A stretch of 17,219 nt of DNA, taken from contig JAILZY010000074.1 in the NCBI GenBank assembly GCA_023512255.1, positions 1 through 17,219 on the forward strand. Reading direction: 5' to 3'. The DNA comes from a bacterium (GTDB taxonomy: Bacteria > SZUA-182 > DTGQ01). Both the position numbers and the translations under genes were made by a program. This document shows positions 3,194 to 17,163 of this stretch, one piece after another (within the stretch, counting starts at the first letter, position 1; each line of letters starts with the position of its first letter). The notes beneath the pieces were generated by a model. It searched no databases. It was not told the origin of the DNA and saw only the letters and a program-made list of their open reading frames with translations.

Positions 3194-3763
3194 ATGATGA
3201 AAAGATATCCCCGGCAGAAAAAATTACTCCTTGCAGCAGTAGTAGGAATTCTGCTTGGGGGAGTGCTCCTTTTCCTAAGACAAATTGGCATCTGGCGGCA
3301 CCAGATGGTGAGCGGCCCGCTTTCCCAGTCGGTGATTCTAAATAAGGCAGATATAGAGGTCAAGAAGATGGAACTATCAGAGACTGAGGCTGGGGAACTT
3401 GCCTGGAATCTGAAAGCCGAAAAGGCTCAGGTTTATGAAAAAGAGGGAGTTGCCTATCTGCAGGGTATCAGTCTGGAGTACCTGTTGAATGAAGGCGAGG
3501 AGGTAATACTAACCAGTGAGCGGGGGAGAATCGGATTAGCACAGAAAAACGTATTCCTTCAGGGGAACGTAGATGCTTCATCACACCAGATACAACTCAA
3601 GACCAATACCCTTTCCTGGAACAGAGAAAAGAGAATGCTTATGACCGAAGATCTAGTCTGGCTGAGAAGGGAAAATATTGAAATTACCGGCGAGGGCATG
3701 GTCGCCGACATAGGTCTGGGGAAAATCAAATTGAATAAAAATATAAGGACAGTGATCCATTGA
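3194..3763 (+). CDS. lptC: LptC, inner-membrane LPS export component
   Basis: 189 residues, matching LptC. A basic N-terminus (KRYPRQKK) is followed by a single transmembrane helix at about residues 11-29. The rest is a periplasmic beta-rich domain with the repeating strand pattern of the LptC/OstA group (for example WNLKAEKAQVY and ERGRIGLAQKNVFLQGNV). LptC bridges the LptBFG transporter to LptA in the periplasmic LPS bridge. Two ATGs lie in tandem (3194 and 3197), and no strong ribosome binding site precedes either. Its stop overlaps the TTG start of lptA, which supports translational coupling. Position directly before lptA and lptB makes the call firm although LptC sequences are poorly conserved. 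Confidence 0.88.
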   Translation: MMKRYPRQKKLLLAAVVGILLGGVLLFLRQIGIWRHQMVSGPLSQSVILNKADIEVKKMELSETEAGELAWNLKAEKAQVYEKEGVAYLQGISLEYLLNEGEEVILTSERGRIGLAQKNVFLQGNVDASSHQIQLKTNTLSWNREKRMLMTEDLVWLRRENIEITGEGMVADIGLGKIKLNKNIRTVIH

Positions 3764-4314
3764 TTTATGACTATTTTTTTTATAATAAGACCAAGGGAGA
3801 AGGATATATTCTCACCTTCCTGATGGTCATAATACTTTTGCTCCGCTCGACTGTGACCTCACCAGCAGAGAGAGAAAAGGCCCAACCACATATCGGACAA
3901 ACGAAAGAAGCCAAAATTTTGATTACCTCCGATCAGGTAGAATTTGATCCTCGCAACGAGATTGCCGTTTATACGGGCCGGGTCACTGTAACCCAGGGAA
4001 ATACGATCTTGCAAGCTGATCGGATAGAGGTGCACTTTGCTGACAAAGGCAAAAGTATCACCTTGATCAAGGCGATAGGTAATATTAAAATTACCCAGGA
4101 AGACAGGATAGTTACTGCTGAGGAAGGGATATATTATCAACAGGATCGAAAAATGATTCTAACGGGCAACCCAATTACTAGGCAGGGAGACAATTGCATC
4201 AGTGGAGATAAGATCGTCTACTTCTGGGATCAGGGCAGGGCGATGGTTGAAGGGAACGTTAAGGCTACGATCAGCATGGACAAACAAAAAATGGAAATGT
4301 TGAGGCCAAACTAG
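3760..4314 (+). CDS. lptA: LptA/OstA-type periplasmic LPS transport protein
   Basis: 184 residues. A basic n-region and hydrophobic core (about residues 16-31) followed by STVTSPA look like a signal peptide with cleavage near Ala36, consistent with a periplasmic protein. The mature part has the OstA/LptA beta-strand repeats, for example ILITSDQVEFDPRNEIAVYTG, VTQGNTILQADRIEVHF and ITGNPITRQGDN-like strands. LptA polymers carry lipopolysaccharide across the periplasm. The TTG start overlaps the lptC stop (TTGA), with AAGGA (3745-3749) 10 bases upstream. The first in-frame ATG (3823) would cut into the signal peptide and lacks a well-spaced ribosome binding site. lptB starts 3 bases after its stop. 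Confidence 0.88.
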   Translation: MIYDYFFYNKTKGEGYILTFLMVIILLLRSTVTSPAEREKAQPHIGQTKEAKILITSDQVEFDPRNEIAVYTGRVTVTQGNTILQADRIEVHFADKGKSITLIKAIGNIKITQEDRIVTAEEGIYYQQDRKMILTGNPITRQGDNCISGDKIVYFWDQGRAMVEGNVKATISMDKQKMEMLRPN

Positions 4315-4317
4315 ATT

Positions 4318-5034
4318 GTGCTTGAGGCCCGAGGTCTTATTAAAAGGTATAAAGGACGAACAACGGTCAAGGGAGTGAGCTTCTACCTTGATCGGGGAGA
4401 GGTAGTGGGGCTGCTTGGACCCAATGGTGCGGGAAAGACTACTACCTTTCGAATGATTATCGGCTTAATCAAGTCAGAGGGAGGAGGAATATTTCTTGAT
4501 GGCACTGAGATTACCCACTTGGCCATGTACCGGCGGGCTAATCTGGGAATTAGCTACTTGGCGCAGGAATCCTCGATTTTTAGAAAATTGAATGTCGAAC
4601 AGAATATTATGGCTATACTTGAAACACTTGATTTGGATTCGGCAGAGCGCCAGCGGCAGCTAGAAATGTTACTAGCTGAGCTAAACCTGACTGATTTGGC
4701 AAAATATGAAGCCGATATTCTTTCCGGAGGAGAGCGCAGGAGAGTAGAGATTACGCGGGCTTTGGTGACTTCTCCCTCCTTTATCCTCCTAGATGAGCCG
4801 TTTGTAGGCATTGATCCCAAAGCCGTGGTCGGGATACAGAATATCATCAGAAATTTGAAAAAAAAAGGTATTGGGGTATTGATTACTGATCATAATGTCC
4901 GAGAGACTCTAACCATTACCGATCGGGCTTACATCATGTATGATGGTGAAATTCTGATTTCCGGCACTACTGCAGATTTGATCAAAGACGCTAGGGTCAA
5001 GGACCTTTATCTGGGGGAGAGTTTCCGGATGTAA
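4318..5034 (+). CDS. lptB: LptB, LPS export ABC transporter ATPase
   Basis: 238 residues, the normal LptB length. It is the cytosolic ATPase that powers LPS extraction from the inner membrane with LptF/LptG, neither of which is encoded in this window. Visible elements are Walker A GPNGAGKT at 34-41, the Q-loop Gln83 in LAQESSIF, signature LSGGE at 135-139, Walker B FILLDE at 155-160, the LptB-typical PFVGIDP, and the switch His192 in ITDHNVRETL. The start is GTG 4318, three bases after the lptA stop, with GAGG at 4302-4305 as a distant ribosome binding site and likely coupling to lptA. LptB differs from generic ABC ATPases by the SSIFRKLNVEQN and DHNVRETL segments seen here. Confidence 0.96.
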   Translation: MLEARGLIKRYKGRTTVKGVSFYLDRGEVVGLLGPNGAGKTTTFRMIIGLIKSEGGGIFLDGTEITHLAMYRRANLGISYLAQESSIFRKLNVEQNIMAILETLDLDSAERQRQLEMLLAELNLTDLAKYEADILSGGERRRVEITRALVTSPSFILLDEPFVGIDPKAVVGIQNIIRNLKKKGIGVLITDHNVRETLTITDRAYIMYDGEILISGTTADLIKDARVKDLYLGESFRM

Positions 5035-5038
5035 TCTC

Positions 5039-5067
5039 TTGACAGGGATAATTTATTATGTTATTGT
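5039..5067 (+). promoter_or_regulatory. Extended -10 sigma-70 promoter for the HU-family gene
   Basis: TTGACA (5039-5044) begins four bases after the lptB stop. After 17 bp comes TATTGT (5062-5067), preceded by TG and one base (5059-5061), which makes an extended -10. The HU-family gene probably has its own promoter rather than relying only on lpt read-through. Confidence 0.6.
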
Positions 5068-5141
5068 TATTAAAGAATATCTGGCTATTTTTAAAATTAT
5101 AAATGTATGTCTTAATAACTGGAAAGGAGGTCCTTTGAACA

Positions 5142-5420
5142 ATGACGAAAGCTGATCTTGTGATGGAGGTAGCTAAGTTAACAGACTTAACCAAAAAAGA
5201 GACCGAAACGGTAATTAAAACCATATTCGGCAGCATCACTACCGCCTTGAGTGAAGGAGATAAGGTGGAGCTTAGGGGTTTTGGGAGCTTTCGGATAAGA
5301 AATCGGAAAGCCAGGCAGGGGAGAAATCCCAAAACTGGTGACATGGTGAATGTACCGGCCAAAAAGGTACCATTTTTCAAAGCGGGAAAGGAACTGCGAT
5401 CGTTAGTTGATTACTGCTGA
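5142..5420 (+). CDS. HU/IHF-family nucleoid DNA-binding protein
   Basis: 92 residues, the size of HU and IHF subunits. Visible are the N-terminal dimerisation helices (TKADLVMEVAKLTDLTKKE), the beta-saddle GDKVELRGFGSFRIR, and the DNA-intercalating arm motif RNPKTG with its proline, followed by the typical FKAGKELR C-terminus. Such proteins bend DNA and shape the nucleoid. IHF-type bending also assists sigma-54 promoters, an attractive link to the adjacent rpoN, but I cannot tell HU from IHF by eye. The ribosome binding site AAAGGAGGT (5123-5131) is near-perfect, suggesting high expression, and a dedicated promoter lies just upstream. It sits between lptB and rpoN, where many relatives have none. 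Confidence 0.93.
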   Translation: MTKADLVMEVAKLTDLTKKETETVIKTIFGSITTALSEGDKVELRGFGSFRIRNRKARQGRNPKTGDMVNVPAKKVPFFKAGKELRSLVDYC

Positions 5421-5439
5421 TTCTGACAAGGTGAAAGAG

Positions 5440-5488
5440 CAAGGGTTGAAGATATCGAATGTCGATGAAGGGCATCGAATCACCCTTG
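5440..5488 (+). promoter_or_regulatory. Nested hairpin upstream of rpoN
   Basis: An outer stem CAAGGGT (5440-5446) with ACCCTTG (5482-5488) encloses a perfect inner hairpin TCGATG-AAGGG-CATCGA (5462-5478). There is no T-run, so it is not a standard terminator. It ends 32 bases before the rpoN start codon and could influence rpoN translation or RNA stability. The regulatory role is inferred. Confidence 0.4.
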
Positions 5489-5520
5489 ACAGGAGATATT
5501 AACTGAAGAGAGGTATCGTT

Positions 5521-6990
5521 ATGGCGCTGGAGATGAAGCAAACCTTAAACATGAAGTTGACGCACCGGCTAATGATGACTCCGATGTTGCAGCAGTCAAT
5601 CAAGTTATTGCAGCTATCGAAACTCGAATTGACCCAGCTCATTCACCAGGAATTGCAGGAAAATCCCATGCTGGAGGAATTATCATTAGAGCCGCCTTCA
5701 GATTTCGGGTCAGAGGAAATCGAACAGCGGGATATCAACCCTGAAGATATTCGGCTCGGCAGTGAGGAAAACGGCTTCGATAATGCAGAAAGGGAGCTAG
5801 ATTGGGAAAACTTCATTGATGATGACCTTGTGGACACCAATCGGCTCTCGATTTTGGGTGGTGATGACCGAGAGCTACCCCCTCTGGAAAATATCCTGAC
5901 TAAGCCTCAGTCGCTGCAAAATTATCTTCTCTGGCAACTCCGTATGACCTCCTCGATTAACGAACATGAGTTTCGGATAGGGGAGATGATTATTGGTAAT
6001 ATCGATGAGAACGGCTATCTTTGTGCTACAGTTGAAGAAATGGCCAAGGTTTTAGGGCTGGAAGATGCCAGAGAGGTTGAAAGGGTACTCCAGGTGATCC
6101 AAAACTTTGATCCAGCCGGGGTCGGGGCCAGAACTCCTCAAGAATGTCTGCTGCTCCAAGTTAAAGAGGAAGAGCCAACAGCCTCATTAATTAGAAAAAT
6201 TATTCAAAATCATATCAATCATTTGGAATCGAGAGAGTATCAGGCGATCGCCAAAAGCCTAGGTATCAGCCTGGCCAAAGTAAAGGAGCTGGCCGATATC
6301 ATTCTCACCTACGATCCTAAGCCTGGTCGGCGCTTCAACCCTGATGTTTCTCATTATATTGTCCCTGATGTATTTGTCTATAAAATGGGAGACGATTACG
6401 TCATCTCTTTGAATGACGAAGGACTGCCGCAGTTGCGGGTAAGTAATATTTACAGAAAGATTCTCCGTAAAGGGAAAAATGTTCCCGATAATACCCGAAA
6501 GTATATTGAGGAGAAGTTGCGGTCCGCTGTCTGGCTGATTAAAAGTATTCAGCAGAGACAGAGAACGCTATATAATGTAGCCAAGAGCATTGTTAACTTT
6601 CAGCGGGAGTTCCTCGATAAGGGAATCGCTTACCTCAAACCCTTGACTCTGGTGGATGTCGCTAATGATATTTCAATGCATGAGTCAACCATTAGCCGGG
6701 TTACTACTAACAAATACATGTATACTCCCCGGGGAATTTTTGAGCTGAAATTCTTTTTTAATTCCGGACTGAAGAAAAAAGATGGCGATTATATCTCTTC
6801 TGTCCGGGTCAAAGAATTGCTCCGTGAATTGATCAAAAATGAAGATGCTCGAAAACCCTACAGTGATACTCAGATTCTGAAATTACTACAACAGCAAGGC
6901 GTGGTAATTGCCAGAAGAACGATTGCTAAGTACCGTGATGAGTTGCACATATTACCCTCTCAAAAAAGAAAAGTGGTCCTCCCTGACTAA
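5521..6990 (+). CDS. rpoN: RNA polymerase sigma-54 factor
   Basis: 489 residues, typical for RpoN. Region I at residues 1-50 is Gln/Leu-rich ([20 protein letters not shown] and onward) and contacts activator ATPases. An acidic region II linker spans about 55-100. The core-binding domain follows, with [18 protein letters not shown] near residue 197. The helix-turn-helix includes [11 protein letters not shown], and the RpoN box ARRTIAKY is at about 464-471, which reads the -24 element. Sigma-54 directs core polymerase to -24/-12 promoters that need enhancer-binding ATPases. GAGAGG (5508-5513) precedes the ATG. The rpoN-hpf-ptsN order that follows is a widely conserved arrangement. Confidence 0.98.
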
Positions 6991-7002
6991 GTACGCGGAC
7001 CA

Positions 7003-7018
7003 AAAGTTATTTAACTTT
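7003..7018. promoter_or_regulatory. 16-bp perfect palindrome in the rpoN-hpf gap
   Basis: AAAGTTA-TT-TAACTTT is a perfect palindrome 12 bases after the rpoN stop. It is bracketed by two near-identical copies of GGAC(C)AAAAGTT, at 6997-7008 and 7022-7032. The arrangement resembles an operator or a small hairpin. The 6991-7167 gap has no gene and no convincing sigma-70 promoter; TTGACG occurs at 7031 and 7109 but without a good -10. Confidence 0.35.
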
Positions 7019-7167
7019 CCTGGACAAAAGTTGACGATCTTTTTCTTCGGAGAGGGAAATCTTCTCGCTGCTGTTATCTGCTGCTTTTTCACCCGCATGG
7101 ATAGGGGATTGACGAGTGGGCTGATAAAAAATTTTCTTTTTTCTATATTTTTAAGGAGGTCCTGACA

Positions 7168-7710
7168 ATGCAAGTCCTGATTACGGGTAGGCATATGGAG
7201 ATGACCGAGGCCTTACAGGATTATGTAAAGAGTAAAGTTGAGCGAGTGGGCAAATATCTGGAAAACATTAAAGAGGCTGACGTCATCCTGTCGGTAGAAA
7301 AATATCGTCATTCTGCCGAAGTAACCATTAAAGCCAACGGGATCATCATCAATGGAGAGGAAGAAACCGATGATATGTATAGCTCTATTGATTTGGTGAT
7401 GGAAAAAATCGAGCGGCAGGTAAAAAAATATAAGGAGAAGATTCGTCAGCACAAGACCAAACAGCCGCTGAAAGAGGTGGTTATGGGTACGGATATGTTT
7501 GCCTCGGAAAAAGAGGAGGAAGGTGCGGCTAAGCTGATTAAGACCAAACGAGTGGCTATTCAACCGATGAGCCTAGATGAGGCGATCATGCAGATGGATC
7601 TAACCAATGAAAATTGCTTCGTGTTCATGAATCCGGCCTCAAATTCTGTAAGCGTGATTTACCGGTCTAAGGATGATAAATTGGTACTAATTGAGCCTGA
7701 GTTCCAATAA
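7168..7710 (+). CDS. hpf: Long-form ribosome hibernation promoting factor
   Basis: 180 residues in two parts. The N-terminal S30AE/RaiA domain (about 1-100, starting QVLITGRHMEMTEALQDYV) binds the 30S decoding region. A charged linker follows. The C-terminal dimerisation domain (about 122-178) contains the typical PMSLDEAIMQMDLTNENCFVF segment. Long HPF alone drives 70S pairing into 100S dimers, unlike the short enterobacterial HPF. AAGGAGGT (7153-7160) is a full-strength ribosome binding site, sharing the 11 bases AAGGAGGTCCT with that of the HU-family gene. It lies between rpoN and ptsN, the conserved context of this family. Confidence 0.97.
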   Translation: MQVLITGRHMEMTEALQDYVKSKVERVGKYLENIKEADVILSVEKYRHSAEVTIKANGIIINGEEETDDMYSSIDLVMEKIERQVKKYKEKIRQHKTKQPLKEVVMGTDMFASEKEEEGAAKLIKTKRVAIQPMSLDEAIMQMDLTNENCFVFMNPASNSVSVIYRSKDDKLVLIEPEFQ

Positions 7711-7747: not shown

Positions 7748-8215
7748 ATGAGGGTCTTGGATTACTTGCCGGAGGAGGTCATTGAAGCGGAGCTAAAAGC
7801 TGAAACCAAGATAGAGGTACTGAGAGAATTGGTTCAACTTCTGGTGAACAACAATAAAATTCGAAACCCAGATAAGGCTCTTGAGGTTTTGCTAGAGAGG
7901 GAAAAGCTTGGCAGTACCGGAATTGGAGATGGGGTAGCTATCCCTCATGCTAAATTTAACGATATCAAAAACTTAGTAGCTGCTTTTGGTCGATCTCGAA
8001 AAGGGGTTAATTTTGAATCACTGGATAATAAGCCAGCACACCTATTCTTCTTATTTCTAGCACCGGAAAATTCAGCTACTCTTCATCTAAAGATCCTGGC
8101 TAGGATCTCTCGGCTTCTGAAAAAACCTACCTTTCGAGAGGCTTTAATGCAGGCCAAAAATAGCGCTGATATTTACCGGGCTATTGCTGAGGAAGAAAAA
8201 GACGTTATAGGATAA
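7748..8215 (+). CDS. ptsN: PTS EIIA-Ntr family protein
   Basis: 155 residues, one PTS EIIA type-2 domain. The phospho-accepting His67 lies in GDGVAIPHAKF. Around it are LLEREKLGSTGIG and, later, LFFLFLAPENSATLHLKILARIS, both standard for EIIA-Ntr. Such proteins receive phosphate through a phosphorelay and regulate rather than transport. There is no PtsP (EI-Ntr) gene here, so the PtsI/HPr of the same cluster are the likely phosphate source; that is inferred. A GGAGGG ribosome binding site (7733-7738) precedes the ATG, 37 bases after hpf. The stop is followed by an A11 run leading into hprK. Confidence 0.95.
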   Translation: MRVLDYLPEEVIEAELKAETKIEVLRELVQLLVNNNKIRNPDKALEVLLEREKLGSTGIGDGVAIPHAKFNDIKNLVAAFGRSRKGVNFESLDNKPAHLFFLFLAPENSATLHLKILARISRLLKKPTFREALMQAKNSADIYRAIAEEEKDVIG

Positions 8216-8240
8216 AAAAAAAAAGCGAGAAAATGCTCGC
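8214..8240 (+). promoter_or_regulatory. A11 run and start-codon hairpin at the hprK start
   Basis: Eleven A residues (8214-8224) follow the T of the ptsN stop codon. They are directly followed by GCGAG (8225-8229), loop AAAATG (8230-8235) and CTCGC (8236-8240): a 5-bp GC-rich hairpin whose loop contains the hprK ATG (8233-8235). No purine-rich ribosome binding site of normal strength is present. The structure could limit hprK initiation. The A-run could promote polymerase slippage but lies after the ptsN stop, so it would not alter either protein. Confidence 0.45.
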
Positions 8241-9192
8241 CCCAAAATTCTTAACTATCCAAGAACTGTTAAACGAACAGACAGAGCGGCTGCAGCTAAA
8301 AGTCCTAAGTGGGGAGGAGGGACTGAACCGCAAGATCTCTTCTCCTCGTATCCAAAGACCTGGCCTGGCTCTGGCGGGCTATTTTGCCCAGTTGAGGGCA
8401 GAGCGGATCCAGGTACTAGGGAGCACTGAATTGTCCTTCATGGATACCCTCTCAAGCGAGCGCCGTCAACAGGTTTTAGAGGATATTTGTCAAATACCCA
8501 TCTCCTGCTTTATCCTGACGAAGGGTTTGTTTCCTCCACCAGAGATGATCTCTATAGGAAACAAATATAAAATTCCCATATTGCAATCCAGCCTTCAAAG
8601 TTCCCTCTTCATCCGACAGATTTCTATTTACTTAGAAGAAAAATTGGCCCTTGAGACGAGCATTCATGGGGTTTTGATGGATATCTATGGCCGTGGAGTT
8701 CTCCTGCTTGGCAAAAGCAGTATCGGCAAGAGTGAATGTGCCTTAGACCTCATCGTTCGAGGGCATCGGTTAGTCTCGGATGATATGGTCAATATCAAGC
8801 TGCTGCCCCCTGACATATTAATTGGCAGCGGTCCGGAACTAATCCGCTACCATATGGAGCTACGGGGCCTTGGAATTATCAATATCAAGGATCTGTTTGG
8901 AGTAGCGGCTGTTCGTTATCGGAAAAAGATTGAGCTGGCGGTAGTGATGGAAGAGTGGAAACAAGAGTGTGAGTATGATCGGCTAGGGCTTGAGGAGAGC
9001 ACTATAAATATCTTGGGAGTTGATATTCCTTTGATCAAAATGCCGGTAGCCCCGGGCAGAAATATGGCCATAATTATTGAAGTGGCCGCCCGAAATCAGC
9101 TGCTGAAGGAAAGCGGCTATTATTCGGCCCGTGAGTTTGATCAAAAGGTGATCAATATATTGAGAAAAAAATCCAAGGCCAAATTTATCTAG
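8233..9192 (+). CDS. hprK: HPr kinase/phosphorylase
   Basis: 319 residues, the expected length. The N-terminal domain includes the family segment RIQRPGLALAGYFAQL (about 39-54). The catalytic domain has His145, a P-loop GKSSIGKSE (160-168), acidic Asp183-Asp184, the second signature LRGLGIINIKDLFG, and VAPGRNMAIIIEVAARN near the C-terminus. The enzyme phosphorylates HPr on Ser46 using ATP or diphosphate and reverses the reaction with phosphate. The ptsH gene in this cluster encodes an HPr with Ser46, so the target is present. The P-loop has Ser163 where the family usually has Gly (GxSGxGKSE). The start is fixed by upstream stops, but the ribosome binding site is poor and the ATG lies in a hairpin loop. 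Confidence 0.97.
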   Translation: MLAPKFLTIQELLNEQTERLQLKVLSGEEGLNRKISSPRIQRPGLALAGYFAQLRAERIQVLGSTELSFMDTLSSERRQQVLEDICQIPISCFILTKGLFPPPEMISIGNKYKIPILQSSLQSSLFIRQISIYLEEKLALETSIHGVLMDIYGRGVLLLGKSSIGKSECALDLIVRGHRLVSDDMVNIKLLPPDILIGSGPELIRYHMELRGLGIINIKDLFGVAAVRYRKKIELAVVMEEWKQECEYDRLGLEESTINILGVDIPLIKMPVAPGRNMAIIIEVAARNQLLKESGYYSAREFDQKVINILRKKSKAKFI

Positions 9193-9214: not shown

Positions 9215-9652
9215 ATGGAAAATAACTTAGTCGGAGTAGTTATCGTCGCTCACGGGAACTTAGCGCAAGAGCTACTAAAAAGTGCAGAGCTCATCGTTGG
9301 CCCGCTCCAGCAGGTGAAAGCCGTCTCTGTGGATTCGAGAAACGGGGTAGAGCAGGTGAGGCATGATATTCAAGTGGCCATCGAAGAGGTTGATGCCGGC
9401 TCGGGAGTGTTAATCTTAACGGATATGTTCGGAGGAAGTCCTTCTAACCTGAGCCTATCCTTTTTGTCCACCAAACGCATCGAGGTCGTCACGGGAGTGA
9501 ATCTTCCAATGCTCTTGAAATTGGCTACCTATCGCCAGGGACACTGCTTGGAGGAAATTAAAGAAACCGTGTATACTTACGGTCGAGAAAAGATCATTAT
9601 TGCCAGTGATCTATTGAACAAGAAACTAGAGGGGAAAAAAGCCAAGATGTAG
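9215..9652 (+). CDS. PTS EIIA component, mannose family
   Basis: 145 residues, a single EIIA-Man domain without a fused EIIB. His13 in GVVIVAHGNLAQ is the phospho-acceptor, and LTDMFGGSPSNLS (about 68-80) is the conserved loop near the active site. It accepts phosphate from HPr and passes it to EIIB, encoded 104 bases downstream. A GAGAGGG site lies just before ATG 9215, and the gene starts 22 bases after the hprK stop, so the two are probably co-transcribed. Position in a cluster with EIIB, EIIC and EIID supports a real transport role, though stand-alone EIIA-Man proteins can be purely regulatory. Confidence 0.94.
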   Translation: MENNLVGVVIVAHGNLAQELLKSAELIVGPLQQVKAVSVDSRNGVEQVRHDIQVAIEEVDAGSGVLILTDMFGGSPSNLSLSFLSTKRIEVVTGVNLPMLLKLATYRQGHCLEEIKETVYTYGREKIIIASDLLNKKLEGKKAKM

Positions 9653-9756: not shown

Positions 9757-10251
9757 ATGCCGATAGTGTTAGTGCGGATAGATGAAAGATTAATTCATGG
9801 TCAAGTGATTGTCGGATGGGTAAAATTCCTAAAGGCCACGGCAATCATTGTGGTTGATGATGAAATTGAAAAAGATAAGTTGCGGCTTGAGGCCATGAAA
9901 CTTGCCGTGCCGGAACATATCAAGGTAGAGGCTTATAGTGTCGCCTTGGCCGTGGAAAAATATCTTCATCATGATCTGCCTGATAGAAATGTGATCATCC
10001 TTTTTTCCAGACTGAAGGATTTTAAAAGGTCCCTAGATCTTGGCTTTACCACCCGGGAAGTGAACGTGGGTTGTGTTCATTCTGGAGAGATAAAGATACT
10101 AAGCAATATAGCTATTAAGGCAGAGGAGGCATACTACTTGGTAGAAATTCAGAAAAGCGGGATACATCTAGATTTGCGCGCTCTGCCTGGGGATAAGCGA
10201 ATCGAATTGCAGGATATTCCCATTTATCGAAAATTGATCGGACAAAAATAA
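9757..10251 (+). CDS. PTS EIIB component, mannose/fructose/sorbose family
   Basis: 164 residues, the full EIIB-Man length. The N-terminus VLVRIDERLIHGQVIVGW holds the phospho-acceptor His14 and the Arg/Asp residues typical of this domain. The tail LVEIQKSGIHLDLRALPGDKRIEL matches the family's C-terminal strands. EIIB takes phosphate from EIIA-Man and transfers it to sugar bound in EIIC/EIID. The start has no clear ribosome binding site. The 104-base gap before it (9653-9756) is AT-rich and shows no gene, and an in-frame stop at 9724 rules out a longer form from an earlier standard start. Confidence 0.94.
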   Translation: MPIVLVRIDERLIHGQVIVGWVKFLKATAIIVVDDEIEKDKLRLEAMKLAVPEHIKVEAYSVALAVEKYLHHDLPDRNVIILFSRLKDFKRSLDLGFTTREVNVGCVHSGEIKILSNIAIKAEEAYYLVEIQKSGIHLDLRALPGDKRIELQDIPIYRKLIGQK

Positions 10252-10274
10252 AAATATCTTAGGGGAGATAGATT

Positions 10275-12455
10275 TTGAAAAAAAAATATCTTATCTTAGG
10301 AATACATAATCACCAGCCAATGGGGAATTTTGATTTTGTTTTTGAAGAGTGTTACCAGAAGGCATATCTCCCCTTTTGGGAAGTATTGAAAAGACACCCC
10401 GGCATCAAGATAAGTCTTCACTACTCGGGGATATTGTGGAACTGGTTTTTGGGAAAAAACTCTCCCCTTTTGGATATCCTGGTTGATATGATCCATCGGG
10501 GGCAGGTGGAATTAATGAGCGGCGGCTATTATGAGCCAATTTTGCCGATTCTGCCAGATGCGGACAAGGTAGGGCAGATCAAAAAATTAAACCGGTTTCT
10601 CACCGAACACTTCCATATCAAGCCCAGGGGGATGTGGCTGGCTGAGCGAGTCTGGGAGCCTCATCTGGTGCGCTATATTTGCGAGGCTGAAATTGAGTAT
10701 CTGGCGGTCGATGACCTGCACTTTCGCTCTGCTGGGGTTCGCGAGGAGGACCTGTGGGGTTATTACCTTACCGAAGAGCAGGGAAATCTGCTAAAAGTTT
10801 TCCCCGGCAGCAAGTATCTTCGCTACACGATTCCGTTCAAATCCCCTCAGGTAACGATTGACTATCTCCTCAATGGAGGCGGAGGAAAAGGAAACCTGCG
10901 GGTTATGGCCGATGACGGGGAAAAATTCGGTGTTTGGCCGGGCACCTATGAGCTGGTTTATAATCAGGGGTGGCTGGATAAATTTTTCACCCTAATTGAA
11001 AAGCATCAGGATGTGCTTGAGACTGTAACCTTCAGCGAATATGTAGATATGTTTCCTCCCCTGGGGAGGATTTATCTGCCAACAGCCTCATATTCAGAAA
11101 TGGAAGAGTGGGCTCTGCCGATCGAGACTGCGGAAGAATTCATTGCTCTTGAAAAGATGATCAACACAACCCAAGAGCTTGCCCAGACCGTCAAACCTTT
11201 TGTCAAGGGAGGATTCTGGCGCAATTTTTTGAGCAAGTATTCGGAAAGCAACAATATCTACCAAAAAATGTTATGGGTCAGTAAACAAATCGAAAGATGT
11301 CAGAGCAAAGAGGCTGGTTCTAATTCTCCTCCCCCAGCCTGGCTTGAGCAAGCACGAGATGAGCTGTGGATGGGTCAATGCAACGATGCTTACTGGCATG
11401 GGCTTTTTGGTGGTCTATATCTTCCCCATTTGCGGGATGGACTATATAATCACTTAATTAAAGCGGAGAACATCATTGATGAGCAACTCCATCCGACAGA
11501 GAACTGGATCGAGTGTCTCCCTGTAGATATTGATGGGGATGGAATAAAGGAAATCCTGGTCAAAACCTCTCGTCTGATCTTCTGGGTCGATATGGACGCA
11601 GGAGGGACAATAAATGAGCTGGACTATCGACCAAAGGCTTTCAATTTAATTAACTCCCTAATGAGAAGAAAAGAAACCTATCACCAGAAGCTAATGCAGG
11701 GATCGCTCATCGGAGCAGACGACAATGACAGCTATGTAGTAAAAAGTATCCATGAGATTACGGCTAGCAAGGAAAAGGATCTTTCCGAGCTCCTTTATTA
11801 TGATCGATATGCCCGAAATTGTCTGCTCGATCATTTCATCTCTCCGCAGGCCACGCTCAGGGAGTTCAGTCGGCTGGAGTACCAAGAATATGGAGATTTT
11901 ATTACTGGAAACTACCAGAAGAAGCAAATCGAATCGACTCAAGAGAGTCTCCAAATCGATCTTTTTCGCGATGGTTGCCTGTTAATTGAGGGAGAGCATA
12001 TTCCATTTCGAGTGGAGAAGCAGATAGGGATTTGGGCAGATAAATCGGAACTAGCTTTTGAGTACCGACTGGTCAATTTAGGAAAGTTGGCAGTTCAATG
12101 CAGATTTGGGGTAGAATTCAATGTGAATCTTCTGGCTGGACGAAGCCGTGATAGGTACTATCAAGTACCCGGCGTTGTCCTTGAAGATCGGCAGATGGCC
12201 AGTTGGGGTGGACTGGAGCAGGTTAAAGAGATTCACCTGGTGGATGAAGCCCTCGGTCTGATTGTCTCTTTTGATTTTATCACTCCTCCTAACGTCTGGA
12301 GATTTCCAATCGAAACCGCCTCCAATTCTGAATCAGGATTTGAACGGGTTTATCAAAGTTCGGTTATCCTGCCTCATTGGGATCTTAACTTGCGCCCAGA
12401 ACAGGTATGGACCTGCCGTTTCCGATTGCAGATTGCCAACTACAATCATAACTAG
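10275..12455 (+). CDS. GH57 4-alpha-glucanotransferase/alpha-amylase-like enzyme
   Basis: 726 residues. Glycoside hydrolase family 57 motifs are clear: HNHQP at 11-15, GMWLAERVWEP at 119-129 with the likely nucleophile Glu124, and MADDGEKFGVWPGTYE at 211-226 with the likely acid Asp213 or Asp214. These positions match the Thermococcus litoralis 4-alpha-glucanotransferase (Glu123, Asp214). The C-terminal half (about 330-720) has the all-beta extensions found in that subgroup (DUF1925/DUF1926), for example VDIDGDGIKEILVKTS. It probably rearranges or trims alpha-1,4-glucans in the cytosol; no signal peptide is visible. Start TTG 10275 follows AGGGGAGA (10261-10268). It lies between EIIB and EIIC genes, an unusual place. 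The exact activity cannot be fixed by reading alone. Confidence 0.92.
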   Translation: MKKKYLILGIHNHQPMGNFDFVFEECYQKAYLPFWEVLKRHPGIKISLHYSGILWNWFLGKNSPLLDILVDMIHRGQVELMSGGYYEPILPILPDADKVGQIKKLNRFLTEHFHIKPRGMWLAERVWEPHLVRYICEAEIEYLAVDDLHFRSAGVREEDLWGYYLTEEQGNLLKVFPGSKYLRYTIPFKSPQVTIDYLLNGGGGKGNLRVMADDGEKFGVWPGTYELVYNQGWLDKFFTLIEKHQDVLETVTFSEYVDMFPPLGRIYLPTASYSEMEEWALPIETAEEFIALEKMINTTQELAQTVKPFVKGGFWRNFLSKYSESNNIYQKMLWVSKQIERCQSKEAGSNSPPPAWLEQARDELWMGQCNDAYWHGLFGGLYLPHLRDGLYNHLIKAENIIDEQLHPTENWIECLPVDIDGDGIKEILVKTSRLIFWVDMDAGGTINELDYRPKAFNLINSLMRRKETYHQKLMQGSLIGADDNDSYVVKSIHEITASKEKDLSELLYYDRYARNCLLDHFISPQATLREFSRLEYQEYGDFITGNYQKKQIESTQESLQIDLFRDGCLLIEGEHIPFRVEKQIGIWADKSELAFEYRLVNLGKLAVQCRFGVEFNVNLLAGRSRDRYYQVPGVVLEDRQMASWGGLEQVKEIHLVDEALGLIVSFDFITPPNVWRFPIETASNSESGFERVYQSSVILPHWDLNLRPEQVWTCRFRLQIANYNHN

Positions 12456-12478: not shown

Positions 12479-12565
12479 GCAGAAAGGATAAAGGTAAACC
12501 CCACGCCTTCACTCTATAGCAATCTATAGAAAGTGAGCAGACCCAATACAGAAAGGAGAAAGGGT

Positions 12566-13357
12566 TTGGGGGTGATTAAGCAAATTTTTGAAATCAGTCT
12601 CATCGGTGGGCTGATAAATTTGGATGATGTCCCGCTGACTCAAACGATGATCTCGCAGCCGATTGTAGCTGCTCCTCTGATCGGCTGGATGTTTGGCGAT
12701 TTGCAAGCCGGCCTGGTGATCGGGGCATTCTTTGAGCTTATGATGGTTTACCTTTTGCCGATTGGCTGCTCAGTTCCCTTAGATGGCTCTCTGGCTGCGA
12801 TTATCGCTACCGGAATCTACCTCCTGGTCGGATCATCCCCCGGAGGGCAGCCTGAGGCTCTGATCAGCCTGGCCATTCTATCAGCCCTTCCCTCCTCAGC
12901 CATTGCCCAAAAGCTAAGCGTCTTGGTCAGAGAGGTCAATAATAGGATTTCTGATCGAGCTCAGGCAGTGGTCTTGGATAAAACTCCAGGCAAAATCGAT
13001 CTTCTCCACTTCAGTGGAATTGGGCTTTTTTTCCTTCGCTCATTCAGCCTGTGTCTGATAAGTCTGCTCATTGCTGTCCCGCTAATCAGAAGTGTTATTC
13101 CCTTTTTATCCCCAGGGTTAGTTCGTGGCTTAAAGCTTTTGTATTTTGCCTATCTAATGATCGGCATTGCCCTGCTCTTTGACGCCTTTCGAAGTCGGGA
13201 TACCTATTGGTTGTTTGCCCTAAGCTTTTTACTAGCCACACTTTTTTCTACTGTCTGGCCATTGCCGGCTTGGATGGCCTTTGGGATGCCCTGTGTGCTG
13301 GCGGGAGCAGGGTATGGAATAAGAGAAAGGCTAAGGGGGAAGTATGGCTGTAGATAG
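12566..13357 (+). CDS. PTS EIIC component, mannose family
   Basis: About 263 residues from the preferred start. A membrane protein with several hydrophobic helices and the EIIC-Man pattern LTQTMISQPIVAAPLIGW, then GDLQAGLVIGAFFELMMVYLLPIG and CSVPLDGSLAAIIATG. It forms the sugar channel with EIID. I place the start at TTG 12566 because AAGGAG (12553-12558) lies 7 bases upstream and the resulting N-terminus aligns with the family. A longer reading frame from GTG 12533 adds 11 residues but has no ribosome binding site. The stop overlaps the EIID start by 14 bp, so the two are translated together. The sugar specificity cannot be read from the sequence. Confidence 0.9.
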   Translation: MGVIKQIFEISLIGGLINLDDVPLTQTMISQPIVAAPLIGWMFGDLQAGLVIGAFFELMMVYLLPIGCSVPLDGSLAAIIATGIYLLVGSSPGGQPEALISLAILSALPSSAIAQKLSVLVREVNNRISDRAQAVVLDKTPGKIDLLHFSGIGLFFLRSFSLCLISLLIAVPLIRSVIPFLSPGLVRGLKLLYFAYLMIGIALLFDAFRSRDTYWLFALSFLLATLFSTVWPLPAWMAFGMPCVLAGAGYGIRERLRGKYGCR

Positions 13358-14147
13358 TGGAAAATCAATGAGACAGAACGCCCCCTGCCTAAGTAAGCTT
13401 GATTTGCTTAGGGTTATTATCCGCTCTTTTATCTTTCAAGGCAGTTGGAATTTTAAGAAGATGCAAAATGTCGGCTTTGCTTTTTCAGCCGCTCCTGCTC
13501 TTCGGCGGCTCTATCCGGATCAGAAAGAGCAAGAAGCAGCCCTGGGTCGGCATCTTGAATTTTACAACTCTCACCCCTATATGGCCTCTTTTGTTCTGGG
13601 AGCCATTATCAAAATGGAGGAGCGGCACTCAAAAGGGGAAGATATCAAAATAGAGGATATCCTAACGTTTAAAAAGGCTATGATGGGACCGATGGGTGCT
13701 TTGGGAGATTCTTTTTTCTGGGCCTCCTGGCGACCCTTCCTCGGTGCCCTGGCTGCCGCGCTGGCTCTGATTGGCTGGAAATTGACTCCGATTGCTTTTC
13801 TTCTCGTTTACAATATCCCTCACTTCTACGTAAAATTTTTTGGCTTTTGGCAAGGCTATATTCTCGAGAGGGGAATTGTAGAGCAGATTAGAAAGTATGA
13901 TTTATTTCGATGCAGTGCTCACCTGAAATCTTTTATGTTAATTATACTTGGAGCGATGATCCCGGTTGTGATAAAATTGGAGTGTAAGCCGCCGTCACTT
14001 TGCTTAAACCTGATAGAGAAGCTCGGAATTGTGCTGGGAATCCTGATAATTTCGGAATTTTTCCGTCGAAAGATCACCTTGACTAGGTTATTGGTTATTA
14101 CGAGTAGTATTTGCATCTTATTAGGGATATTGAATATTCTTAAGTAA
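13344..14147 (+). CDS. PTS EIID component, mannose family
   Basis: 267 residues. The cytosolic first half carries EIID hallmarks: RSFIFQGSWNFKKMQNVGFAF, then LEFYNSHPYMASFVLGAI, and MMGPMGALGDSFFWASWRP (about 113-131). The last half holds several membrane segments. EIID pairs with EIIC to form the translocation unit of mannose-type permeases and is the component unique to that PTS family. AAGGGGGA (13333-13340) precedes ATG 13344, which lies inside the end of the EIIC gene. The C-terminal hydrophobic run ending ILLGILNILK is the expected last helix. With EIIA, EIIB and EIIC nearby the permease is complete. Confidence 0.93.
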   Translation: MAVDSGKSMRQNAPCLSKLDLLRVIIRSFIFQGSWNFKKMQNVGFAFSAAPALRRLYPDQKEQEAALGRHLEFYNSHPYMASFVLGAIIKMEERHSKGEDIKIEDILTFKKAMMGPMGALGDSFFWASWRPFLGALAAALALIGWKLTPIAFLLVYNIPHFYVKFFGFWQGYILERGIVEQIRKYDLFRCSAHLKSFMLIILGAMIPVVIKLECKPPSLCLNLIEKLGIVLGILIISEFFRRKITLTRLLVITSSICILLGILNILK

Positions 14148-14218: not shown

Positions 14219-14488
14219 ATGCCAAAGCAGACAGTATTTATTAAAAACAAGTTAGGCTTACATGCGCGAGCTGCTAGCCAGATTGTCAATCTGGCCTCTC
14301 AGTATACCTCAGAAGTAACGATTCAGAAAGGGAATGTTACGGCCAATGGAAAAAGCCTTCTCGGGATATTGACTCTTGATGCTCCCCTGGGTAGCGAATT
14401 GCTGATAGACGTGAATGGTTCCGATGCACAGGAGCTGCTGACTAAGCTGGTAGAATTGATCGAAAATAAATTTGGAGAGAAAAATTGA
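14219..14488 (+). CDS. ptsH: Phosphocarrier protein HPr
   Basis: 89 residues, the usual HPr size. The EI-dependent phosphorylation site His15 is in NKLGLHARAAS with Arg17, and the regulatory Ser46 is in NGKSLLGILTL. HPr carries phosphate from Enzyme I to EIIA proteins in the cytosol. Ser46 within this context is the target of HprK/P, encoded upstream, so both control modes are available. A GGGGGAA ribosome binding site lies just before ATG 14219. The 71 bases before the gene are AT-rich without a convincing promoter, so transcription from the upstream PTS genes is likely. ptsI follows after 67 bases. Confidence 0.98.
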   Translation: MPKQTVFIKNKLGLHARAASQIVNLASQYTSEVTIQKGNVTANGKSLLGILTLDAPLGSELLIDVNGSDAQELLTKLVELIENKFGEKN

Positions 14489-14555
14489 TTAGTAGGGAAG
14501 ACTCCTTGATTTTTAATTATTTACCTTGGGTGAGAGGTATGGAGGTCGATTTTTA

Positions 14556-16295
14556 ATGTTGAAAGGAGTAGGGGTATCACCGGGCATTAGCATCGGTAAA
14601 GCCTTTTTACTAGATAGAAGAAAAATTAAGGTTGAAAAATTTACCATTGCTGCTGAAATGGTAGAGGGAGAAGTAGCTCGGTTTATGGATGCTCTTCAAA
14701 AATCCCGAGAGCAGCTACTCCAGGTAAAGGAAAAACTCACCCAAGACCTCGGTGGTGATCAGGCACATGCCCATATTGTGGATGTCCATATCCTTATCCT
14801 TGAAGACGAGATGCTGGTCAACGAGGCCATAAAGATCGTAAGAGAAGAACGGGTCAATGCAGAATGGGCTCTGCGTAAGGTGTTGACTCGATTTGCCAAC
14901 ATCTTCGATCAAATCGAAGACCCCTACATGAAGGAGCGCAAAAGCGACATCGAACACGTAGGCCAGAGGATCCTTCATAATCTAGCCGGGGAAAAAATGA
15001 GAAGCCTTGATGGATTTGATGAGGATGTTATTGTAGTCGCTCACGATCTATCCCCGGCTGATACGGCTCAGATGCACCAGAGCAGGGTGATTGGTTTTGC
15101 TACTGATCTGGGGGCCAGAACTTCACATACGGCCATTATGGCCCGCTCACTAGAAATTCCGGCAGTGGTTGGCCTGGAAAATATTTGCACCTTTGTCAAA
15201 ACCGGCGATCCAATTATCATTGACGGCACCGATGGAGTGGTGATCGTTAAACCAACCCCGGAAGAGTTTCGTGAATACCTAGAGAAGCAGCGCAGATATA
15301 AATACGTTATCCAGGAGCTCTTAAAATATAGTGATCAGCCAGCCGAGACCTTGGATGGATACAAGATTGATATCATGGCCAATATCGAATTCCTGGACGA
15401 AATTCCCCATGTATTGAGCCGTGGAGCGGAAGGAATCGGGCTGTATCGAACCGAATTCTTCTACATGAATAGCCCCAAATTGCCTACAGAAGAAGACCAT
15501 TTTCGGGTCTATAAGCGGCTAGCTGAACAGGTAAGCCCTCGTCAAGCAACCATTCGTACCCTAGACCTTGGGGGAGACAAAATAGAGTCTACGCTTCACG
15601 TGGCCGACGAACCTAATCCTGTACTGGGCTTGCGGGCTATTAGGTTCTCTCTAAAGCACTCAGATCTTTTCCGCCTCCAATTGCGGGCCATTCTGCGGGC
15701 CAGCGCCTATGGGAAATTGCGCATTATGTACCCGATGATTTCCGGCATTGAGGAACTCCGGCAGGCTAATCTCATCCTGGCTGAAGTCAAAGATGAGCTG
15801 TCTTCACAGGGAATTTATTTTGATGAGGATATCCCGGTGGGAGTGATGATCGAAATCCCCTCGGCTTCAATCACTGCTGATCTTCTGGCCAAAGAGGCTG
15901 ATTTTTTCAGCATCGGCACCAATGACCTAATCCAGTATTCCATTGCTATTGATCGGGGAAATGAACACGTGGCCTACCTGTATGAGCCGCTGCATCCGGC
16001 TGTCCTTCGATTGATCAAGCGTACCGTAGAGGCTGGGCATGCTGAGGGCATCCCGGTAGGTATGTGCGGAGAAATGGCAGGAGATCCTTTATCAACACTG
16101 ATCCTGTTAGGGCTAGAGTTGGATGAGTTCAGCATGAATACTGCCTCGATCCCAATCATCAAACAAATTATCCGCTCCGTTCGACTGGAGCAGGCTACGG
16201 AGCTGGCATATAAAGCCTTGTCTTTTTCTACGGCCAAAGAGATCGAAGAATTTGTGCGTAGGGAAATGAGCGCGAAATTTCCAGAGTTTTTTTAA
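14556..16295 (+). CDS. ptsI: PTS Enzyme I (phosphoenolpyruvate-protein phosphotransferase)
   Basis: 579 residues from the preferred start, the standard length. Enzyme I takes phosphate from phosphoenolpyruvate and passes it to HPr. Visible motifs are the N-terminal KGVGVSPGISIGKA, the swivel domain with the active His191 in GARTSHTAIMARS, and the PEP-binding domain with EGIGLYRTEF, TIRTLDLGGDK, RIMYPMISG, FFSIGTNDLIQY and the active-site GMCGEMAGDP. I choose ATG 14556 because GGAGG (14541-14545) sits 10 bases upstream and the protein then starts at the conserved MLKGVGVSPG. An in-frame TTG at 14526 would add 10 residues with no family similarity. It is the last gene of the PTS cluster. Confidence 0.98.
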   Translation: MLKGVGVSPGISIGKAFLLDRRKIKVEKFTIAAEMVEGEVARFMDALQKSREQLLQVKEKLTQDLGGDQAHAHIVDVHILILEDEMLVNEAIKIVREERVNAEWALRKVLTRFANIFDQIEDPYMKERKSDIEHVGQRILHNLAGEKMRSLDGFDEDVIVVAHDLSPADTAQMHQSRVIGFATDLGARTSHTAIMARSLEIPAVVGLENICTFVKTGDPIIIDGTDGVVIVKPTPEEFREYLEKQRRYKYVIQELLKYSDQPAETLDGYKIDIMANIEFLDEIPHVLSRGAEGIGLYRTEFFYMNSPKLPTEEDHFRVYKRLAEQVSPRQATIRTLDLGGDKIESTLHVADEPNPVLGLRAIRFSLKHSDLFRLQLRAILRASAYGKLRIMYPMISGIEELRQANLILAEVKDELSSQGIYFDEDIPVGVMIEIPSASITADLLAKEADFFSIGTNDLIQYSIAIDRGNEHVAYLYEPLHPAVLRLIKRTVEAGHAEGIPVGMCGEMAGDPLSTLILLGLELDEFSMNTASIPIIKQIIRSVRLEQATELAYKALSFSTAKEIEEFVRREMSAKFPEFF

Positions 16296-16485: not shown

Positions 16486-16557
16486 GCCGGCGTAGCTCAG
16501 TGGTAGAGCAGCTGATTCGTAATCAGCAGGCCGCGGGTTCGAATCCCATCGCCGGCT
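16486..16557 (+). tRNA. tRNA-Thr (anticodon CGT)
   Basis: A full cloverleaf is visible: acceptor stem GCCGGCG/CGCCGGC, D arm GCTC..GAGC, anticodon stem GCTGA/TCAGC with loop TTCGTAA (anticodon CGT at 16518-16520, reading ACG), and T loop TTCGAAT. The T stem has GGG/CCC plus a C-A mismatch and a G-T pair at its base. The CCA end is not encoded. A strong terminator follows. Confidence 0.96.
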
Positions 16558-16576
16558 CTTCTTTTAAAACCAAAAG

Positions 16577-16613
16577 AGGGGTTGCCGATTAGGTTCGGCA
16601 ACCCCTTTGCTGT
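16577..16613 (+). terminator. Intrinsic terminator after tRNA-Thr
   Basis: A perfect 12-bp stem AGGGGTTGCCGA (16577-16588) and TCGGCAACCCCT (16595-16606) with a 6-base loop, followed by a short T-rich stretch (TTGCTGTTT). It ends the tRNA transcript. The AAAAG before the stem gives some terminator quality on the other strand as well. Confidence 0.9.
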
Positions 16614-16797: not shown

Positions 16798-17163
16798 ATG
16801 GCCTATGATGCAAAAGCGATTGCCAATTATTTCTTAGACTTGGCTAAATCCAAGGGAGAAAAACTAACCCTCATGAAATTGCTAAAGCTTATTTATTTCG
16901 CCCATGGGTGGCATCTGGCGATCACAGGAAAGCCATTAATCGACGAGCAGGTCGAAGCCTGGCAATACGGCCCAGTCATTCCATCTGTCTATCACGAATT
17001 TAAAGGCTTTGGAAACCAGCCAATAACCAGATCCGAAATCGATCCTCAATTGTTGAAACTTTTTGATATTGAAGTACCTGCTATTCATGAGGATGATTCT
17101 TTTACAAAATCCCTGCTTAATAAAATATGGGATACCTATGGAGCAGATGTTCCCCATGTTTAA
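16798..17163 (+). CDS. Panacea-domain (DUF4065) protein, probably truncated
   Basis: 121 residues. The N-terminal two-thirds is a clear Panacea/DUF4065 (SocA- and GepA-like) domain: AKAIANYFLDLAKSKGEKLTLMKLLKLIYFAHGW (about 5-38), GKPLIDEQVEAWQYGPVIPSVYHEF (45-69) and LLNKIWDTYG (107-116). Panacea proteins are best known as antitoxins or adaptor-type neutralisers encoded next to diverse toxins. Family members usually continue past the YG motif with a helix containing Leu/Thr/His, but here the protein ends ADVPHV, inside the repeat that starts at 17144. Insertion of the repeat or a frameshift is likely. An overlapping frame opens at ATG 17156, eight bases before the end of this gene, and runs off the window, so a partner gene is possible. 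The ribosome binding site is weak. Confidence 0.8.
   Translation: MAYDAKAIANYFLDLAKSKGEKLTLMKLLKLIYFAHGWHLAITGKPLIDEQVEAWQYGPVIPSVYHEFKGFGNQPITRSEIDPQLLKLFDIEVPAIHEDDSFTKSLLNKIWDTYGADVPHV

Follow-up and report, generated by a model that had tools for sequence, protein, structure and literature searches.

Gene organization of the locus

We analysed a stretch of 17,219 nucleotides (the window; assembly GCA_023512255.1, contig JAILZY010000074.1) that contains a PTS operon in the order ptsN-hprK-EIIA-EIIB-GH57-EIIC-EIID-HPr-EI, with all genes on one strand. The upstream part of the cluster, lptC-lptA-lptB-HU/IHF-like-rpoN-hpf (3194–7710, + strand; named from translations), was also found in this order in L118, L038, L039, and L040. 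The operon proper, likewise on the + strand, comprises a ptsN-like EIIA (PTS_EIIA_2; 7748–8215; PF00359, E 1.1e-41), the HPr kinase/phosphorylase gene hprK with the P-loop GKSSIGKS (8233–9192; TIGR00679, 373 bits against a cut-off of 240), a mannose-family EIIA with phospho-His 13 (9215–9652; PF03610, E 1e-27), and a mannose-family EIIB with phospho-His 14 in the motif RLIHGQ (PTSIIB_sorb; 9757–10251; PF03830, E 3.7e-39). The GH57 gene (10275–12455, + strand), assigned to the 4-alpha-glucanotransferase type by Pfam, an alignment to 1k1w, a structural model, and a fold match, comes next. Downstream of it lie the mannose-family EIIC (EII-Sor; 12533–13357; PF03609, E 7.2e-28), for which an alternative TTG start at 12566 has a better-spaced ribosome-binding-like site, and the mannose-family EIID (13344–14147; PF03613, E 4.8e-55), which overlaps EIIC by 14 bp and is the sole EIID detected in this genome. 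HPr with His15 and Ser46 (14219–14488; PF00381) and EI (ptsI) with its active-site His (14526–16295; TIGR01417, 651 bits against a cut-off of 341.7) complete the operon. This HPr is the only one detected in the genome; five genomes of the window's own order each carry one HPr in the PTS operon, and G002 has in addition a weak second match elsewhere.

The Pfam assignments, the common strand, and the short gaps (23 bp between EIIB and GH57; 77 bp between GH57 and EIIC, or 110 bp with the EIIC start at 12566) confirmed the original prediction that GH57 is embedded between PTS EIIB and EIIC genes, and the TIGR00679, PF00381, and TIGR01417 matches bore out its claim that the operon has its own hprK, ptsH, and ptsI. 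EIIA, EIIB, EIIC, and EIID all scored over their Pfam cut-offs, and both EIIA and EIIB retain the phosphorylatable His, as in mannose-family permeases (TC 4.A.6). Since the same four proteins stayed below the NCBIfam sub-family cut-offs, this branch of the mannose PTS is divergent. The HprK P-loop together with His15 and Ser46 of HPr likewise corresponds to an HprK/HPr regulatory system.

A scan of the + strand found no terminator-like site in the EIIB-GH57 or the GH57-EIIC gap, and GH57 is presumably co-transcribed with the PTS genes. Past EI and a tRNA-Thr (cgt; 16486–16558), the scan returned a terminator-like hairpin of 14 pairs (16575–16608, + strand), which is likely the end of the transcript. 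This hairpin reads both ways.

The GH57 protein

The GH57 open reading frame is intact, a single unbroken frame of 726 aa that begins with TTG, preceded by a ribosome-binding-like site, GGGGAG plus spacer (10263–10274, + strand; from reading the sequence). The product contains Glyco_hydro_57 (PF03065; residues 7–269, E 2.9e-50), AmyA-A_glucT_m (PF09094; residues 313–400, E 3.8e-32), and AmyA-gluTrfs_C (PF09095; residues 418–715, E 3.2e-67), all over cut-off, and thus has the barrel, middle, and C-terminal domains of the Thermococcus enzyme. By sequence, its sole relative in the PDB is the T. litoralis 4-alpha-glucanotransferase 1k1w (E 1.5e-133). An AlphaFold model built with 20 homologues (pLDDT 87.9, pTM 0.90) matched 1k1x in Foldseek with E 1.1e-62 and TM 0.81/0.93, with other matches far behind. 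The Thermococcus-type assignment of the original prediction was thereby upheld. The two proteins share the three-domain architecture, the fold, the catalytic Glu and Asp, and 35% identity in the structural alignment, whereas the window protein is bacterial, is longer (726 versus 659 residues), and is encoded within a PTS operon.

We assigned Glu124 as the probable nucleophile and Asp214 as the acid/base residue, in line with the roles given for Glu in conserved region 3 and Asp, the proton donor, in region 4 in a GH57 family study (PMC6037648). Both residues were kept in 134/134 aligned GH57 proteins, which rules out an inactive pseudo-enzyme scaffold; the window protein is not one of the "4AGT-like" proteins, which have lost one or both of them. 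That study also places other specificities in the family, and the product is best described as a predicted 4-alpha-glucanotransferase or amylase. Furthermore, the GC and GC3 of the gene equal those of its neighbours, so nothing obvious points to a recent insertion or to recent acquisition from a foreign source.

Recurrence of the operon

We then searched for similar neighbourhoods with the window's genes as queries. The order EIIB-GH57-EIIC-EIID-HPr-EI was found in G000, in G001 of the same genus, and in G003 of the same family, as well as in loci throughout Elusimicrobiota and in bins labelled Clostridia. The label of the "Clostridia" bins is doubtful because they carry lipopolysaccharide-transport genes and one of them, G064, is placed in a small candidate phylum with three genomes in the collection. 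GH57 thus recurs with EIIB and EIIC on both sides in several phyla, and the arrangement is not confined to one genome, the finding that would have spoken against the original prediction. A single-genome artefact or an assembly chimera is ruled out, since the order is shared by independent genomes. Most of the sequences are MAGs, and absences therefore weigh less than presences.

The Elusimicrobiota sample comprised 198 genomes, 77 of which gave 78 strong GH57 matches. EIID lies 0.6–1.7 kb downstream on the same strand for 64 of these 78, and the other matches are mostly in genomes without EIID. Three are on a contig other than that of EIID, where contig ends, as far as visible, break the locus, and two have no listed EIID, one of which (L226) has EIIC adjoining GH57. 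The full operon in this phylum reads (lptB)-hpf-ptsN-hprK-rapZ-(yvcK)-EIIA-EIIB-GH57-EIIC-EIID-HPr-EI, with rapZ and CofD/YvcK identified by domains. A methyltransferase-like gene, recognized by eye, sits between GH57 and EIIC in L051 (12299–12931) and is missing from the near-identical operon L052.

In several small Elusimicrobiota genomes, this site of the operon holds a GH57 remnant that is broken or truncated, and in 15 inspected loci that lack GH57 the operon is otherwise unchanged, EIIC coming right after EIIB. In about half of the sample (94/198), EIID occurs without a strong GH57 match, so the relay functions without GH57. Over the 198 genomes, the presence of GH57 was not associated with that of EIID (p 0.13).

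The phosphorylation sites of the PTS proteins are almost invariant across the loci. The active-site His of EI (68/68 loci), His15 and Ser46 together in HPr (62/62), the phospho-His of EIIB (61/61), and that of EIIA (66/67) are kept, as are the Walker Lys and the Ser of HprK in the loci that cover that position.

Loci lacking the permease

In all 11 inspected loci without EIIB, EIIC, and EIID (L038, L040, L085, L172, L175, L177, L179, L181, L184, L185, and L197), GH57 is followed at once by HPr and EI, and EIIA is still present in seven. Ten of the 11 genomes lack EIID, and the eleventh, G092, gave a marginal match (E 9.5e-4). Two of the 11 loci are in the genomes G002 and G004 of the window's class, in which searches for EIID and for the Glc/Fru-type PTS_EIIC found neither. 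The window itself, with its EIID at 13344–14147, does not belong among the permease-less regulatory PTSs, whose genomes are without EIIB/C/D.

Of the 13 Sumerlaeota genomes that carry GH57, 8 have hprK as its immediate upstream neighbour, and the two genes overlap by 4 bp in L044. For two of the other five, a contig end hides the side upstream of GH57. One Sumerlaeota genome has hpf-hprK-GH57 and GH57-HPr-EI on separate contigs, and one Methylomirabilota locus reads rpoN-hpf-rapZ-GH57. Since GH57 stays with HPr-EI or hprK where the permease is absent, the constant partner of GH57, at the level of gene neighbourhoods, is the HprK/HPr/EI relay, and the permease is dispensable.

These loci bear on the possibility that GH57 is coupled to the permease itself, whereby a mannose-type EII would phosphorylate glucose, either imported or released by the glucanotransferase, and GH57 would supply or consume the same pool. 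EIIB, EIIC, and EIID do surround GH57 in most loci, and the phospho-His of EIIB is conserved; three loci of the "Clostridia" bins have a phosphoglucose/phosphomannose isomerase-type gene after EI, and the mannose PTS of Endomicrobia, a glucose-uptake system according to PMC11257099, is read there as offsetting the loss of glucokinase. However, GH57 remains beside HPr-EI in the 11 loci without the permease and beside hprK alone in Sumerlaeota, and the 94 Elusimicrobiota genomes mentioned above have EIID without a strong GH57 match. We consider this coupling unlikely. The 11 permease-less loci speak against an operon that is, in general, centred on transport through the permease, and the earlier suggestion that the PTS takes up a product of alpha-glucan breakdown is unsupported as a general rule.

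GH57 might also simply be co-expressed within a housekeeping operon that is constitutive and combines carbon and envelope genes, free of any specific control by the PTS. The same cluster holds lpt, rpoN, and hpf genes, and relatives of GH57 occur in quite different settings, next to GAPDH, rluD-like, or uppS-like genes; as the rpoN/hpf/lptB genes form a housekeeping cluster, position by itself need not imply regulation. Yet even where the operon has otherwise been reshuffled or lost, and despite differing upstream genes, GH57 specifically keeps its place next to hprK or HPr-EI, and we judge that plain co-expression is probably not the explanation.

As a third alternative, the operon may have moved horizontally as a unit, so that its recurrence would reflect a few transfers instead of repeated selection for the linkage. 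The base of the GH57 tree is poorly resolved, with most PTS-linked GH57 proteins in one weakly supported group (SH-aLRT 83), and we make no claim of a single origin for them; mannose-class PTS transporters are also reported to move mainly by horizontal transfer (PMC2405797). On the other hand, long branches separate the window clade, Elusimicrobiota, Sumerlaeota, and the small phylum, and permease-less versions recur on separate branches. The linkage is therefore old and has been kept, even if transferred, and spread by a few transfers is very unlikely to account for the recurrence.

Alpha-glucan context

Not all relatives of GH57 lie in PTS clusters, exceptions being those in Nitrospirota, in Fidelibacterota, and in some genomes from the window's class. 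Many of the neighbouring genes were named by reading translations; by eye, these relatives often adjoin glgA, glgC, galT-like, GH57 branching enzyme, and phosphorylase genes, and the GAPDH, rluD-like, and uppS-like neighbourhoods noted above make up others. In Fidelibacterota (L061-L071, L114, L116), GH57 often comes right after a GAPDH-like gene, again by eye, so that a further carbon-metabolism gene recurs as its neighbour.

In several Elusimicrobiota, the PTS operon itself also includes genes for GH57 branching enzymes and DUF4912 proteins. Elsewhere, the window's genome encodes a phosphorylase, a match of the GT5 glycogen synthase type, and a DUF4912-branching-enzyme pair; no strong GT5 match was found in G002. 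A DUF4912 gene adjoins a GH57 branching enzyme in L097 (4595–10004) and L229 (2767–5613), and our literature search found no description of a role for DUF4912 in glycogen metabolism. The window's genome further encodes several small, secreted-looking proteins with YGGLYGG-type repeats (L228, 2266–4121 and 7264–7908; L231, 9083–9793), one set of which flanks the phosphorylase gene on both sides.

Among the 198 Elusimicrobiota, 61 genomes had both GH57 and glycogen phosphorylase, 16 GH57 only, 88 phosphorylase only, and 33 neither. Since the two were not associated (p 0.32), we dropped their co-occurrence as an argument for glycogen, which rests instead on gene context. With this lack of association and a mixed glycogen context, the substrate is best named an intracellular alpha-glucan, probably glycogen or maltodextrin. 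The coupling between sugar phosphorylation and glycogen or maltodextrin turnover that was originally proposed is made more plausible by the proximity of GH57 to HPr, EI, and HprK in several phyla and by its relatives among glycogen genes.

Proposed role and relation to known systems

We lean slightly towards the reading that GH57 is a cytoplasmic alpha-glucan enzyme and a long-standing member of the HprK/HPr/EI operon, made together with the PTS phosphorelay and probably controlled by it. As is established for these protein families, EI senses PEP/pyruvate, and HprK senses the energy and glycolytic state. GH57 would reshape or shorten glycogen or maltodextrin chains in the cytoplasm, and EI and HprK would jointly determine the balance among free HPr, HPr-His-P, HPr-Ser-P, and EIIA-Man/EIIA-Man-P. 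The activity of GH57 would change with one of these forms, most likely of HPr or EIIA-Man, whereby glucan turnover would track the carbon supply. Where EIIB, EIIC, and EIID are present, the relay could in addition take up a sugar, probably glucose or mannose, and phosphorylate it. We infer the regulation through the relay, the direction of the control, and any direct contact between the proteins. A narrower version, which we put forward tentatively, is a direct switch: HPr or EIIA-Man, whose form depends on HprK and EI, would bind GH57 and toggle glycogen remodelling, with hprK-GH57-HPr-EI as the minimal set and the permease as an add-on. The gene neighbourhoods suggest that such a switch may operate in Elusimicrobiota, Sumerlaeota, and other little-studied phyla.

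What is known of glycogen control by the PTS comes mainly from E. coli, in which glycogen phosphorylase is bound and regulated by HPr (Seok 1997, as cited in PMC5320558; also PMC11046441). The working idea of a PTS phosphocarrier that steers glycogen breakdown would be common to both cases by analogy. In E. coli, however, the target is a GT35 enzyme encoded at a separate locus, whereas here the pts operon itself, in several phyla of which few or no members have been cultured, contains a glucan enzyme of another family that outlasts the loss of the permease; the link in this case is suggested by gene order. If the control is direct, it would connect the PTS to energy storage by a second route and give the permease-less PTSs of these bacteria a testable role. 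The operon linkage also offers a way to approach, through gene context, what bacterial GH57 proteins of the 4-alpha-glucanotransferase type do.

The original prediction knew of no standard operon of this form. This has to be amended in one respect, as the rpoN-ptsN-hprK-EIIAMan-ptsH-ptsI cluster has been described in Proteobacteria (PMC2405797). The locus studied here shares these regulatory genes and this type of cluster, but contains the glucan enzyme as well, joined in many lineages by a complete permease of the mannose type; the accessible portion of that paper does not mention GH57. The membership of GH57 in this known cluster thus seems undescribed: no description of GH57 as a PTS-operon member was found in our literature search, which lay largely outside subscription journals, and queries combining GH57 with HPr kinase, or Elusimicrobia with PTS, glycogen, and HPr, returned no literature. 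The words glycogen, amylase, and GH57 were likewise not found in the text seen of PMC11257099.

The permease-less PTS of Brucella, in which EIIA-Man is proposed to act on 2-oxoglutarate dehydrogenase (PMC2937029), resembles G002 and G004, which also have HprK, an HPr-like protein, EIIA-Man, and EI without EIIB/C/D. By contrast, the window has EIIB, EIIC, and EIID, and the candidate target is not 2-oxoglutarate dehydrogenase but the glucan enzyme encoded in the operon.

Beyond the operon terminator and close to the contig end, the window encodes a SocA/Panacea-domain protein (16798–17163; PF13274, E 9.4e-18), which scored 96.2 bits against the NCBIfam SocA antitoxin model, under the cut-off of 190, and is possibly truncated, as it has only 121 aa.
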